A DNA stretch of 64,000 nt from the NCBI RefSeq assembly GCF_000711295.1, contig NZ_JOMJ01000003.1, forward strand, positions 1,189,501 through 1,253,500, written 5' to 3'. Positions 21,592 to 27,244 of the stretch are shown here, piece by piece (position 1 is the first letter of the stretch; each line of letters opens with the position of its first letter). The position numbers and the translations under genes were made by a program. Under the pieces are notes generated by a model, which had not been told where the DNA came from, made no database searches, and worked only from the letters and a program-made list of their open reading frames with translations. This DNA comes from Desulfohalovibrio reitneri (GTDB taxonomy: Bacteria; Desulfobacterota; Desulfovibrionia; Desulfovibrionales; Desulfovibrionaceae).

Positions 21592-22955
<1,364 letters not shown>

Positions 22956-22959
<4 letters not shown>

Positions 22960-24692
22960 GCCGCCTCTCCGCCGGTTTCCGGTTCATTCGGGAAAAACAG
23001 CCGCATGGTGGTTCCCTCCCCGGGCTTGCTGTCGATGTCCAGCCTGCCGCCCACCCCTTCGGCCACGGCGGAGACGATGGCCAGCCCCAGCCCCGTTCCC
23101 TCGGCCCGGGTGGTGTAGAAGGGCTCGCGGGCGCGCTCCAGGGTCTCGGCGTCCATGCCCCGGCCGTTGTCCGCCACCGAGACCTCCACTCCGCCGTCCA
23201 CCTCGCGGGAGCCGATGCGGATGCGGCCGCCCTCGTCCACGGCCGTCAGGGCGTTCATGACCAGGTTGAGCAGGGCCTGCCGCAGCGAGCCCGGATCGGC
23301 CCGCGCCTCGGGGGCCTGAAAATCCGTCTCCAGTTCCACGCCCTTTTCCTCAAGATCGAAGATCAGCAATCGCTCGATCTCCGAGGCGGCCTCGGCCAGG
23401 TCCACCGGCGCAAGGTCTCTGGGCGCGGGCCGGGCCATGAAAAGCAGGTCGGAGATGACCTTGTTCAGCCTGTCCGCCTCGCGCACCATGGTCTCGGCGT
23501 ACTCCTCTTCCGGCGCGCGCCCGGCGAACTTCTTGCGGAAGAACTGGGCGAAGCCGCGCAACGAGGACAGGGGATTGCGCACCTCGTGGGCCACGCCGGC
23601 CGCCAGCCGTCCCACGGCCGCCAGCCGCTCGGAACGGGCCAATTCCGCCTCCAGCCGTCCCACCTCGGTGCGGTCTCGCAAAAGCATCAGGCAACCGCCC
23701 TCGCCGGGCAATTCTTTGCGGATGACCTCCAGCCTGCGGCCGGAAAGCTCCATATGGGAGGCCCCCCGGCAGAGGGACACGCCGGGCATGACCTCGGCCA
23801 GTGGCCGCCCCACGGCCTCGCCGCCCAGCATGTCGCGGGCGGCCGCGTTGGCCGCGGTCACGTCGCCGGAAGCGTCCACCCGCAGCAGGCCGTCGGGCAT
23901 GGCGTCCAGCAGGCCGTGGTGCACGCGCTCCAGGGCGGCCAGCCGCCGCCCCGCCTCGCGCCGCCGGGCGTAGGCCGCGCCCATGAAAATCAACAGTCCG
24001 CCCGCTCCGGCGGTGAAACCGGTGGTCAGCCAGGCGGTGCGCCGCGCACCCCGGTAGCCCTCCATGAATTCCCCGGCCCCGAGCCCCACGGCCAGGTGGA
24101 TCGGCTCCCGGCCGCCCGGCTCGCAGCCCATGCCGGGATCCATGGAGCAGACGTTGGACAGGACGCGCCCTCCTGGTATGATGGTCATGTATACTTCCTG
24201 TCCAGGCAGGAACCCGGACCAGCGTTCCCTGACGTCCAGGGCCCGCGCCGCTCCCGGCGGCAGGTCCACGGCCTCGCTCCCCTCTCCGCGCAGGACGGCG
24301 AGTTGCCGTCCGTCACGCCCCAGCAGGGCCATGAAGCGTACGTCCGACTCGCCCGCCACCTCGCGGAAGAAGGCGCCGGCAGTGGCCAGGATATCGGGAT
24401 CCGCCGCCTCGGTCCCGTCCGGCGGCGGGCGGCGCTCCCGCCCTTCCCGCATGTGGTTCCGCCCCATGTGGCCCATGTGCCCCATCATGCCTGGTCCCAT
24501 GAAACGGCGGGTCAGGCCCCCGCGCACCCCTCTGGCCACCACTTCGGAGGCCAGTTCCAGGTGTTCCTCCATGAGATGGCGCTGCCGCCGCACTCCGTCC
24601 CAGGTCACGGCGGTCACGGCCAGACAGGCAGCGGCGATGGCCGCCCAGGCGAGCCACGTGGGCAGGCCGCCACGGTCGAGGCGGAACTCCAT
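22956..24692 (-). CDS. sensor histidine kinase, ZraS-like, with Met/His-rich periplasmic segment
   Basis: A 578-residue membrane kinase. Two hydrophobic segments (about 12-30 and 220-245) enclose a periplasmic domain that contains MGPGMMGHMGHMGRNHM near residue 65, a likely metal ligand cluster. A PAS domain (about 255-350), the HisKA box VAHEVRNPLSSL and an HATPase domain with NALTAVDEGG, DNGRGM and GTGLGLA follow. The arrangement is that of ZraS. It pairs with the NtrC-type regulator encoded directly downstream. The signal (zinc, copper or envelope stress) is inferred from the Met/His cluster and from the secreted proteins next door. Confidence 0.9.
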
Positions 24693-24830
24693 CTAGGCCT
24701 CCGCCCGGAACCTGCCGGGAAGGCGGACATGTGTGGAAAAGACGGAAAAATGGATCATATTGCTTTGTCTCTGCGCAAAGAATCGGGCCGCCTCATCGCC
24801 ATACAGTTCCGCCGTGGGCCTGACAAGGCG

Positions 24831-24860
24831 CGGGGCCCGGCGGCCGTCCGCCGGGCCCCG
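24831..24860 (-). terminator. hairpin after first ZraP-like gene
   Basis: Perfect 13-bp arms CGGGGCCCGGCGG (24831-24843) and its complement (24848-24860) with a 4-nt loop, just past the ZraP-like stop; no T run. Confidence 0.6.
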
Positions 24861-24880
24861 CATCGCGGCATACTTTCCGC

Positions 24881-25501
24881 CTAGTAGTCGTTCATGCGGC
24901 CCTGGCGGCCCCGGGAGTCGTAGCCGTTGTACTCATCGTACATCATGCCCCTGCGGCCGTTGTAGCCGTCATGCATCATGCCCGGCCTCATGTGGCGGCC
25001 CTGGCCGTCGTGCATCATCCCGGGCCCCATGTGGCGGCCCCGGCCGTCACGCATCATCCCTGGCCCCATGCGGCCACGGCCGTATCCGTCGTTCCAGCCG
25101 GGACAACCCTCCAGGTAGACCGCATCCCCCAGGGCGTTCCGCAATTCGTCGCGCATGGCCCGGCGCTGCTGGCGCAGTTGGGTCTGCAGCTCCACGATGT
25201 CCTTGGTCAGCTGCTCCACCTTGGCCTGGTCGCCCTGGCCGGAAGCCATGAGGTGGTCCAACTGCGTGCGTTTGGCCCACAATTCCTGGCGGGTGGCGAA
25301 AATCCTGTCCTGGTGTTTGTCCATGATCTCCCGCGCCTGTTGCCGCTGCTCGTCGCTGAGGTTCCGCTGCCCCTGGTAGGAATAGCCCGGGCACTCGCCG
25401 TAGTAGCCGCCTCCGCCCCAGCGTTGCGCCTGGGCGGGTACGGCCGCCAGCAGACCGAGGGCCAGCGCCAGGGTGGTCAACAACATCGTCTTGCGGGTCA
25501 T
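24881..25501 (-). CDS. ZraP/CpxP-like periplasmic protein with Met-rich repeats
   Basis: A 206-residue secreted protein: signal peptide ending near AQA at residue 26, a helical LTxxQ-type core (LSDEQRQQAREIMDKHQDRIF, LWAKRTQLDHLMASGQGDQAKVEQL, IVELQTQLRQQRRAMRDEL) and a tail of three repeats of the form MGPGMMxDGxGRH. The core matches the zinc-resistance-associated protein family of periplasmic chaperones. The Met/His repeats resemble those in the neighbouring sensor kinase. It is preceded by a sigma-54 promoter and an activator dyad. Start at 25501 (MTRKTML) follows GAGGAGG; an upstream in-frame ATG lacks a signal-peptide context. Confidence 0.88.
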   Translation of the reverse strand: MTRKTMLLTTLALALGLLAAVPAQAQRWGGGGYYGECPGYSYQGQRNLSDEQRQQAREIMDKHQDRIFATRQELWAKRTQLDHLMASGQGDQAKVEQLTKDIVELQTQLRQQRRAMRDELRNALGDAVYLEGCPGWNDGYGRGRMGPGMMRDGRGRHMGPGMMHDGQGRHMRPGMMHDGYNGRRGMMYDEYNGYDSRGRQGRMNDY

Positions 25502-25552: not shown

Positions 25553-25570
25553 AAGCAGACGACGTGCCAA
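25553..25570 (-). promoter_or_regulatory. sigma-54 promoter of first ZraP-like gene
   Basis: TTGGCACGTCGTCTGCTT on the minus strand: GG and GC are exactly 10 bases apart as required for -24/-12. It lies 52 bp before the start codon. The 308-bp gap 25502-25809 holds this promoter, the activator dyad at 25634-25651 and the next gene's terminator, and no gene. Confidence 0.85.
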
Positions 25571-25633
25571 GGCGTCTTTCCCCTGTATTATTGGAAAGTT
25601 GCCGCACTTTCCGCATCCATCGACGCGCAGACT

Positions 25634-25651
25634 TGTGCAACATCCCGCACA
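25634..25651 (-). promoter_or_regulatory. predicted ZraR-like activator site
   Basis: Dyad TGTGCAACATCCCGCACA (TGTGC-N8-GCACA) centred about 80 bp upstream of the -24/-12 element. The same dyad occurs at the other two sigma-54 promoters of this locus. Confidence 0.7.
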
Positions 25652-25737
25652 GCTTCGCCGACAATACGGACTCTCCCCATTTCTATCAGATGGAGGGTGC
25701 GGATGCGAGGGTCTGGATTGTACGCATTGCTGGTGGC

Positions 25738-25769
25738 AAAAAAAGGCCCGGCGGATATTCCGCCGGGCC
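25738..25769 (-). terminator. intrinsic terminator of small secreted-protein gene
   Basis: Arms GGCCCGGCGG (25745-25754) and its complement (25760-25769), followed on the minus strand by seven Ts. Confidence 0.88.
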
Positions 25770-25809
25770 GCCTGTACTTCCCCCCGAAACCGGAGGTTCG
25801 GACTGTAGC

Positions 25810-26133
25810 CTAGTAGTTCCAGCCGGGGCAGCCTCCGCCTCGGCGGTGGCCGTAGCCCGTGGCGCGGCCCTGGCGCATGCCCTGGCCATGGTTCCAGTTC
25901 CCGGCCTGGTCATACCGGTTCATGTGGCCCCGGTAGTGGCCGCGCTGGCCGTTCATGGCCGCGTTGCCCTGGTACCGCTGGTTGTACTGCCCGGTATTCC
26001 GGCCGTTGTAGGCTTGTTCCTGGTTGTAGCCGTTGTTTTGTCCGAAGCCGACGCCGTTCTGCGCCAGGGCGGGGATGGCCGCCAGGGCGATGACGAGGGC
26101 TGCGGCCAGAAGAAGCATGGTCTTGCCTTGCAT
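25810..26133 (-). CDS. small secreted Asn/Gly/Tyr-rich protein
   Basis: A 107-residue protein with a clear signal peptide (MQGKTMLLLAAALVIALAAIPALA) and a low-complexity mature part rich in Asn, Gly, Gln, Tyr and, toward the end, Arg and His. No family is recognised. The ending GGGCPGWNY resembles the ECPGYSY and GCPGWNDGY pieces of the ZraP-like neighbour, which hints at a shared origin without the helical core. It has its own sigma-54 promoter and paired activator dyads, so it belongs to the same response. Start ATG at 26133 has GAGAGAAAACA upstream. Confidence 0.75.
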   Translation of the reverse strand: MQGKTMLLLAAALVIALAAIPALAQNGVGFGQNNGYNQEQAYNGRNTGQYNQRYQGNAAMNGQRGHYRGHMNRYDQAGNWNHGQGMRQGRATGYGHRRGGGCPGWNY

Positions 26134-26173
26134 TGTTTTCTCTCCTTTCTTTCCTTGCGTTTCAGTATACATA

Positions 26174-26191
26174 AAGCAGAGAGCGTGCCAA
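26174..26191 (-). promoter_or_regulatory. sigma-54 promoter of small secreted-protein gene
   Basis: TTGGCACGCTCTCTGCTT on the minus strand, with 10 bases between GG and GC, 41 bp before the start codon. Confidence 0.85.
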
Positions 26192-26253
26192 GACGACAGC
26201 CTAATAATTTCAAGTATTTAGACAGGAGGGCATTTTCTGTGATGTGCACGCGA

Positions 26254-26292
26254 TGTGCAATTCTCCGCACGCCTTGTGCATCCGGGTGCACC
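26254..26292 (-). promoter_or_regulatory. paired activator dyads
   Basis: Two copies of TGTGC-N8-GCAC: TGTGCAATTCTCCGCACG (26254-26271) and TGTGCATCCGGGTGCACC (26275-26292). Their centres are 21 bp apart, two helical turns, and lie about 80 and 100 bp upstream of the sigma-54 promoter. Confidence 0.7.
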
Positions 26293-26307
26293 CCCCCCCA
26301 ACGTGAA

Positions 26308-26335
26308 GAGCCCGGCGGCCTGGGCCGCCGGGCTC
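26308..26335 (-). terminator. hairpin after second ZraP-like gene
   Basis: Arms GAGCCCGGCGGC (26308-26319) and its complement (26324-26335); on the minus strand it ends with CTTCACG, so the T run is poor. It lies 53 bp past the stop codon. Confidence 0.6.
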
Positions 26336-26388
26336 TCCGGTTTGGGGTTCAAGGATGAGGAGGATGGAGGGTATGTGGACAGGAGCTC

Positions 26389-26928
26389 CTACCAGGTCAT
26401 GCAGGGACCGTAGCCCATGCCGTGCCCCATCATGCCGTGATGGGGGCCACGGTGGTAGCCACGACCATAGCTGTTGTTGGCGGCCACATCGCCCAGCTTC
26501 TGGTTCAGTTCCCGCCGCATGGCTTGGCGCTCCTGGAAGAGTTGTCCGCGCAGATCGGAGATTTCAGTGGTCAGCTGCTCGACCTTCCCCGGGTCGGCCT
26601 GGCCGGAGCGGGTCAGGGCGTCGAGCTGGGTGCGCTTGGCCCAGATGTCCTGGCGCAGCTGGAAGAGCTTCTCCTGGTGCTTGTCAATGATCTGGTCAAA
26701 AGTCTTCTGTTGCTCCGTGGTCAGGGCGGGGCCGCCGTATCCGGGGCCGCCGCGCATGGAGCCGGGACCTCCGCAGCCATAGCCCTGGGCGTGGCCGTAG
26801 CCCGGGCCGCCGTGTCCGTAGCCGGAACCGTGGCCGGGTCCGCCGTGGTTGCGGGCCATGGCCGGGACGGCGGCCAGCAGGCCCAGGGCCAGAATCGCCG
26901 TGATGAAAATGGATGTACGCTTGGTCAT
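26389..26928 (-). CDS. ZraP/CpxP-like periplasmic protein, second copy
   Basis: A 179-residue secreted protein: signal peptide ending near AMA, a His/Gly-rich spacer (HGGPGHGSGYGHGGPGYGH), the same helical core as the first copy (LTTEQQKTFDQIIDKHQEKLF, IWAKRTQLDALTRSGQADPGKVEQL) and a His/Met-rich tail HHGMMGHGMGYG. The spacer and tail are plausible metal ligands. It probably arose by duplication with the 24881 gene. It has its own sigma-54 promoter and paired dyads. Start at 26928 (MTKRTSIF) follows GGAGAGAGAC. Confidence 0.88.
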   Translation of the reverse strand: MTKRTSIFITAILALGLLAAVPAMARNHGGPGHGSGYGHGGPGYGHAQGYGCGGPGSMRGGPGYGGPALTTEQQKTFDQIIDKHQEKLFQLRQDIWAKRTQLDALTRSGQADPGKVEQLTTEISDLRGQLFQERQAMRRELNQKLGDVAANNSYGRGYHRGPHHGMMGHGMGYGPCMTW

Positions 26929-26979
26929 GTCTCTCTCCTTGCTTGATGTGCAACGCGTCGTCGCCATTGCCCAGGAGAG

Positions 26980-26997
26980 AGGCAGAAGCCGTGCCAA
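26980..26997 (-). promoter_or_regulatory. sigma-54 promoter of second ZraP-like gene
   Basis: TTGGCACGGCTTCTGCCT on the minus strand with 10 bases between GG and GC, 52 bp before the start codon. The 316-bp gap 26929-27244 holds this promoter, paired dyads and the nfu upstream region, and no gene. Confidence 0.85.
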
Positions 26998-27058
26998 AAA
27001 TGAAAAAATAGTCATAACGAATACTTACCCAATGCGCACCCGCCGCATCCGCCCGGGT

Positions 27059-27098
27059 TGTGCGAAGCGCTGCACCAGCATGTGCAAACGGGTGCACA
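27059..27098 (-). promoter_or_regulatory. paired activator dyads
   Basis: TGTGCGAAGCGCTGCACC (27059-27076) and TGTGCAAACGGGTGCACA (27081-27098), centres 22 bp apart and about 78 and 100 bp upstream of the sigma-54 promoter. A further TGTGCAC follows at 27101. Confidence 0.7.
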
Positions 27099-27244
27099 AA
27101 TGTGCACGGCGAAGGGCGCGCGTCCCGCCGGGGCTTGCCTCGGCGCGCGTGGAGGGTATGATGGCCCGTCCACTCCCGCCCGCTTGATTGACAAGCCCGG
27201 GGGGAGGGGCTACCTGACCACCAACCGCAACCAAGGAGCGTGGC

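Follow-up and report, generated by a model that had tools for sequence, protein, structure and literature searches.

A putative sigma-54-dependent two-component switch with helically phased operators at the ZraP-like genes of Desulfohalovibrio reitneri

Genes, promoters and operators of the locus

The locus described here lies in a 64,000-nucleotide stretch of the Desulfohalovibrio reitneri genome, which we analysed as a whole and call the window. On its minus strand, three genes for small exported proteins are each preceded by a sigma-54 promoter and by copies of a dyad that resembles an activator operator, and they are followed by the genes of a sensor histidine kinase and an NtrC-type response regulator. 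In the order of transcription, the genes are:

26389..26928, minus strand: ZraP-like gene A; 179 amino acids, signal peptide, PF13801 (E 3.6e-12)
25810..26133, minus strand: small secreted Asn/Gly/Tyr-rich protein; 107 amino acids, signal peptide, no family
24881..25501, minus strand: ZraP-like gene B; 206 amino acids, signal peptide, PF13801 (E 3.4e-18), C-terminal GPGMM repeats
22956..24692, minus strand: membrane sensor histidine kinase with PAS domain; MGPGMMGHMGHMGRNHM in the N-terminal sensor region
21592..22959, minus strand: NtrC-type response regulator; receiver, AAA+ domain with GAFTGA at residue 215, Fis-type helix-turn-helix (HTH)

The original prediction, made from the sequence alone, had proposed three sigma-54 promoters with exact GG-N10-GC spacing in front of three small secreted-protein genes. 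Both parts held, as all three promoters are exact on the minus strand and all three products carry a signal peptide:

26982..26996, minus strand: sigma-54 promoter 1, TGGCACGGCTTCTGC; exact match, GG-N10-GC; lies before ZraP-like gene A
26176..26190, minus strand: sigma-54 promoter 2, TGGCACGCTCTCTGC; exact match, GG-N10-GC; lies before the small secreted protein gene
25555..25569, minus strand: sigma-54 promoter 3, TGGCACGTCGTCTGC; exact match, GG-N10-GC; lies before ZraP-like gene B

In the window, TGGCACG-N5-TGC is matched exactly at these three promoters only. Each stands some 40-55 bases upstream of a start codon, and each gene concerned encodes a signal peptide. The genome encodes one sigma-54 and contains 36 TGGCAC-N6-TGC sites.

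Upstream of the promoters, the operator core common to all three is GTGC-N8-GCAC, found in six exact copies within 1.5 kb (distances run from the dyad centre to the T of TGG):

27060..27075, minus strand: promoter-proximal operator of promoter 1, GTGCAGCGCTTCGCAC; centre 71 bp upstream of TGG
27082..27097, minus strand: second operator of promoter 1, GTGCACCCGTTTGCAC; centre 93 bp upstream, 12/12 against TGTGCA-N6-TGCACA
27092..27107, minus strand: third, overlapping operator of promoter 1, GTGCACATTTGTGCAC; centre 103 bp upstream
26255..26270, minus strand: promoter-proximal operator of promoter 2, GTGCGGAGAATTGCAC; centre 72 bp upstream
26276..26291, minus strand: second operator of promoter 2, GTGCACCCGGATGCAC; centre 93 bp upstream
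25635..25650, minus strand: single operator of promoter 3, GTGCGGGATGTTGCAC; centre 73 bp upstream

The dyad had originally been given as TGTGC-N8-GCACA and as shared by all three promoters. That stricter string fits two of the six cores, at the first and third promoters but not the second; the window has two exact copies, where shuffles predict 0.11, and the whole genome has four. The spacing of the dyad pairs, predicted as 21-22 bp, was measured as 22 bp at promoter 1 and 21 bp at promoter 2. The distances of about 80 and 100 bp given for the dyads correspond to their outer edges, the centres lying at 71-73 and 93 bp, and the overlapping dyad at 103 bp had been missed.

The prediction hinged on the dyad not occurring at background frequency, and a scan of the 3.39-Mb genome found 39 GTGC-N8-GCAC cores, six of them in this 1.5 kb (binomial probability approximately 2e-14). 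We then defined a composite as a dyad, a gap of 46-76 bp and TGGCAC-N6-TGC, with the reversed pattern as control. This genome contains three composites, all at the locus, and no reversed pattern. In a test that covered 30 of the 36 TGGCAC-N6-TGC sites, the 140 bp upstream held a best operator match of 12, 11 and 11 of 12 positions at the three promoters and at most 9 of 12 at the other sites tested. These other sigma-54-like sites have background-level operators at best. By the strict measure, the regulon in this genome consists of these three promoters.

Conservation, helical phasing and a third element

To the locus of the window we added 36 loci of relatives from the order, each at the best match to the regulator (tblastn identity 53-67%), and compared half-sites and spacers 40-130 bp upstream of the sigma-54-like site. 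GTGC with N8 was found at 14 of these 37 loci, whereas each of 119 other combinations of half-site and spacer was found at one locus at most; N8 was sharply preferred over the range N4-N13. Across 247 genomes of the family there were 120 composites, in 77 genomes and 18 genera, against 25 of the reversed pattern. These data strongly argue that the dyad is a concrete operator that belongs with the -24/-12 sites, as had been proposed, and indicate that the switch is kept across many sulfate-reducing bacteria.

The regulator encoded alongside has all the parts of an NtrC-type enhancer-binding protein (receiver, AAA+ domain with the predicted GAFTGA, Fis-type HTH). Its ortholog was present in 72 of the 77 genomes with a composite and in 63 of the 170 others (Fisher p 3e-18, uncorrected for ancestry); the control pattern showed no such association (p 0.66). 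By coordinates, the composite lies within about 6 kb upstream of the regulator ortholog in 55 of the 72 genomes. The DNA-binding helix is near-invariant among orthologs, HR[EQ][RK]TADALGISRRTLQYKLKK, and the HTH scan matched Nitratidesulfovibrio liaohensis, N. oxamicus and Desulfovibrio sp. A2. The adjacent GAFTGA regulator is thus the best candidate for the protein that binds the dyad, and very probably the activator of the switch.

It could instead be that another regulator, either a paralogous NtrC-type activator or a protein of the CRP/FNR type, binds the dyads and that the two-component system is a mere neighbour. Close paralogs of the regulator (45-54% identity) occur in every genome, composites do not lie beside the regulator in 17 of the 72 genomes that have both, and the TGTG...CACA half-sites resemble those of CRP-type proteins. 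The CRP site, however, is TGTGA-N6-TCACA, and the sharply preferred N8 does not fit it; we rejected a CRP-type reading of the dyad on this spacing. Moreover, composites track the regulator ortholog and mostly adjoin its operon, and a ZraP-linked paralog in Nitratidesulfovibrio has another HTH and a promoter without the dyad. We therefore consider a different regulator unlikely.

In 118 composite promoters, dyad centres fell 59-64, 68-75, 81-85, 91-96 and 102-105 bp upstream of TGG and nowhere between, giving peaks at about 61, 72, 83, 94 and 104 bp that share one helix face; the more distant peaks are under-represented, as the search that found most of these dyads allowed 54-84 bp only. Phasing at 11 bp had a mean resultant R of 0.70 for 133 dyads, and R was 0.75 (p 0.0003) with one locus per genus in 13 genera other than that of the window; the six dyads of the window itself deviate from this phase by no more than 1.7 bp. 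In the consensus of the operators, TGTGCA-N6-TGCACA, GTGC and GCAC were fixed by the search pattern, while the flanking T (75%) and the inner A (90%) were both free.

An unsupervised motif search of the spacer between dyad and promoter returned AACATRCTGAAAT, with a log-likelihood ratio of 208 compared with 35-41 for shuffled spacers. In 78 of 115 promoters the start of this third element is 29-31 bp before TGG. With the preceding pyrimidine, the element reads YAANNNNYTGAWW, the reverse complement of WATCARNNNNTTR, the consensus for integration host factor (IHF) used in a study of the orp promoters of Desulfovibrio vulgaris (PMC3897727). Family-wide, a clear element stands at a fixed offset between the operator and the -24 element, where an IHF-dependent sigma-54 promoter would have YAANNNNYTGATW; the window matches at 7-8 of 9 positions. 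Compared with the consensus by eye over its nine defined positions, the boxes in the window are:

27015..27027, minus strand: IHF-type box of promoter 1, TAAGTATTCGTTA; weak, 7/9, 30 bp upstream of TGG
26208..26220, minus strand: IHF-type box of promoter 2, TAAATACTTGAAA; 8/9, 29 bp upstream of TGG
25589..25601, minus strand: IHF-type box of promoter 3, CAACTTTCCAATA; 7/9, 31 bp upstream of TGG

No such box is present at the remaining 27 sigma-54-like sites that were tested in this genome. The genome has six strong HU/IHF-family genes, and the third element may be bound by IHF. Neither this element nor the helical phasing had been part of the original prediction.

A ZraP-like gene lies within 900 nucleotides of 72 of 115 distinct composites. 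Among the remaining ones are composites that precede small secreted Met/Gly-rich proteins, SHOCT-like small membrane proteins or no credible open reading frame (ORF). In the genomes of loci L142, L152, L284 and L293, the SHOCT-like proteins (MEF..GNWCGGP..) are encoded on the strand opposite to the regulator, roughly 6-9 kb away. In Pseudodesulfovibrio-type genomes (L141, L291 and L296), composites precede a leader-peptide-like hydrophobic peptide of 63-66 amino acids (..ILVV..LLRR..).

Directly 3' of an ORF-less composite in Humidesulfovibrio-type genomes, we observed a conserved candidate RNA of about 150 nucleotides that combines a GGAGACGAACA stretch, repeats of CCUCC and a perfect terminator (L250:207-364, that is G029:C13:78151-78308; also L134, L143, L251, L255, L257, L262 and L266). 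Eleven genomes of a single genus have it at full length; its C-rich repeats are anti-Shine-Dalgarno-like and covariation in its upstream helix is only patchy. A locus similar to the Pseudodesulfovibrio peptide loci (L311) ends in a CGAACACC and CCTCCTC tail like that of the Humidesulfovibrio RNA. The ORF-less composite of Nitratidesulfovibrio (L139, L111, L114-L116, L118, L241 and L245) is accompanied by a conserved CAGCGCATGACAACGCTG hairpin and a GC-rich stem. A search of Rfam with the candidate RNAs gave no match. One match to the small-RNA model in the window's own genome (C3:2387613) was discarded as a terminator look-alike that has neither promoter nor dyad.

Products, transcription units and proposed mechanism

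Genes A and B score 47 and 66 bits against PF13801 (gathering score 29.2) and are the only genes of the genome above the cut-off; the middle gene falls below it. Gene B resembles the solved structure of Salmonella ZraP (3lay, E 5.6e-10). The middle protein is like gene B in its signal peptide and its GCPGWN tail but lacks the helical core. The products may be two ZraP-like periplasmic chaperones or metal binders, together with one short protein that is perhaps their relative.

Genes A and B are paralogous, with 47% identity where they align, and the tail and signal peptide of the small gene also link it to gene B, so the three promoters might be alike because a single zraP unit was recently duplicated in tandem, and not because function constrains them. 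Against this, the sequence between the elements has diverged and the operators differ in number and inner bases, but their positions and phase match to within 2 bp. Other genera, moreover, have this layout in front of unrelated genes. Duplication may explain how the promoters arose but not why they were retained, and as a full account it is very unlikely.

Three further features separate the genes:

26305..26338, minus strand: strong hairpin after gene A; 15 pairs, z -5.8, without a T run
25745..25769, minus strand: perfect intrinsic terminator after the small gene, ahead of promoter 3
24829..24862, minus strand: strong hairpin between gene B and the kinase gene; z -4.1, without a T run

Hairpins 3' of all three small genes have a near-identical GCCCGGCGG stem. 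The genes for the response regulator and the kinase overlap by four bases. With a terminator or strong hairpin between the genes, three single-gene units and a kinase-regulator operon are plausible, and each small exported-protein gene looks to have its own complete switch, the three units being driven in parallel.

The promoters, operators, enrichment, phasing, third element, regulator co-occurrence and protein families were all read from sequence, and from them we infer binding by the regulator and by IHF, the inducing signal and the function of the proteins. We propose, at a probability of roughly 80%, that the locus is a two-component, sigma-54-dependent switch for envelope stress (or metal stress). 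The membrane kinase would sense a periplasmic signal and phosphorylate the response regulator, whose dimers would bind GTGC-N8-GCAC operators cooperatively on one helix face, about 61, 72, 83, 94 or 104 bp upstream of the -24 element. The bound regulator would assemble into an AAA+ hexamer and be brought to RNA polymerase carrying sigma-54 by an IHF-type bend, which has a fixed position between the operator and the promoter. The output would be ZraP-like periplasmic chaperones, each gene being expressed from its own switch.

Several observations weigh against this proposal. The regulator is present in 63 family genomes that have no strict composite, so the operator or the promoter varies or is lost there. 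The six cores are the only ones at the locus and none lies upstream of the kinase gene (24692); autoregulation of the kinase-regulator operon is thus not evident, unlike in Nitratidesulfovibrio. The IHF-type boxes of the window are mediocre matches (7-8 of 9), with IHF named from its consensus only. In D. alaskensis G20, zraP is the gene most strongly repressed under Cu(II) (PMC8836040), which makes simple copper induction unlikely. Finally, the counterpart that we favour below, DVU1419 of D. vulgaris, is matched by operon layout, target types and motif length, not by sequence.

As for the signal, Met/His-rich GPGMM motifs are common to the sensor loop of the kinase and the tail of gene B, a hint at one ligand for both proteins and at feedback from the chaperone to the sensor. 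Such feedback of ZraP has been reported for Salmonella and E. coli. This mechanism stays a hint, since similar Met-rich stretches occur in a minority of the orthologous kinases.

A broader reading, to which we give slightly less than even odds, is that one regulator runs an envelope-stress regulon throughout the Desulfovibrionaceae from a rigid three-part enhancer of phased dyads, IHF box and sigma-54 site. It would control periplasmic ZraP-like chaperones and small membrane proteins, to which some genera would add a C-rich small RNA that is not annotated, and in Nitratidesulfovibrio control of zraP would have passed to a paralogous two-component system. For a regulator with targets that were largely hypothetical proteins, the analysis defines a precise operator, which can be used for genome-wide regulon prediction in a large group of sulfate reducers. 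With more than 100 promoters, it is also among the clearer sequence cases of helix-face phasing combined with a fixed bending site in natural sigma-54 promoters. It further suggests that these bacteria have a multi-copy ZraP-type envelope response with links to small RNAs, much like the sigma-E and Cpx responses of enterobacteria.

Comparison with known systems

The locus had been described as a ZraR-like regulon. This stands for the target, ZraP, but not for the regulator, which scored 413 bits against the ZraR equivalog of NCBIfam (cut-off 760) and scored better against AtoC and NtrC. The kinase likewise fell below the ZraS equivalog (233 versus 479), as did the periplasmic proteins below the ZraP equivalog (36 and 26 versus 200). 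As in ZraPSR of Escherichia coli and Salmonella, a periplasmic ZraP chaperone would be under sigma-54-dependent two-component control. Unlike in ZraPSR, the zraP genes here are co-directional with the kinase operon and present in several copies, and all proteins lie below the equivalog cut-offs.

We take DVU3384 of D. vulgaris to be a ZraP homolog. The system DVU3382-DVU3381 was our first candidate for a known counterpart: Kazakov 2015 gives DVU3382-DVU3381 and DVU3384 as the targets of DVU3381 and labels this regulator envelope stress response (PMC4641369). Like the locus in the window, it combines a ZraP-like target, a kinase and a GAFTGA regulator under sigma-54, so the two could be orthologous and the operator could belong to DVU3381. 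Nitratidesulfovibrio, however, has two relevant two-component systems. In the zraP-adjacent one (L235 and L238), zraP is divergent from the kinase operon, the regulator is only about 50% identical to that of the window and carries the helix NKSEAARRLGITRATLHNKLKKY, and the zraP-kinase intergenic region has no GTGC-N8-GCAC. This system fits DVU3381. The same intergenic region has a conserved TGTATAAAAACTATACGC element that is probably the operator of a DVU3381-type regulator. The other operon, located elsewhere, encodes a kinase, a regulator, a lipoprotein and an Hpt protein after a GTGCAATTTTATGCAC dyad 80 bp upstream of TGGCACG; its regulator is 56-60% identical to that of the window, with the same DNA-binding helix and the same dyad. 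The Nitratidesulfovibrio ortholog of the window's regulator is, on these comparisons, that of the autoregulated kinase-regulator-Hpt operon and not of the zraP-adjacent system. The helices and dyads of the two systems argue against DVU3381 as the counterpart, and we consider that assignment quite unlikely.

The kinase-regulator-Hpt operon instead fits DVU1418-DVU1419 of D. vulgaris Hildenborough by its layout and the dyad before its own operon, and the ORF-less composite of the genus fits a non-coding RNA (ncRNA) target. DVU1418-DVU1419 is a two-component sigma-54 activator system with GAFTGA and an envelope stress label, its operon is described as three-gene, with Hpt among the abbreviations of its figure, and the targets of DVU1419 are DVU0036, its own operon and an ncRNA (PMC3333781; PMC4641369). 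Rajeev 2011 validated an 18-bp DVU1419 motif by electrophoretic mobility shift assay (PMC3333781). The ORF-less composite of Nitratidesulfovibrio may correspond to the ncRNA target upstream of DVU3282. The regulator of the window is probably of the DVU1419 type, and with a validated site for that type the operator is probably not new to science; the likeness of the DVU1419 motif to TGTGC-N8-GCACA is one of length, both being 18 bp. Unlike DVU1418-DVU1419, the window has two ZraP-like genes and a small exported protein as targets, no Hpt after the regulator and no operator before the kinase.

The orp1 and orp2 promoters of D. vulgaris are IHF-assisted sigma-54 promoters, and the IHF site of orp2, at -43, proved important there (PMC3897727). 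Their IHF site lies between the activator site and the -24 element at a position similar to that of the IHF-type boxes here; their activator is DVU2106, with a different operator, and IHF binding in the window is predicted. Together, these comparisons indicate that the locus is a known kind of system, in which the detail of the architecture and the family-wide set of targets are new.

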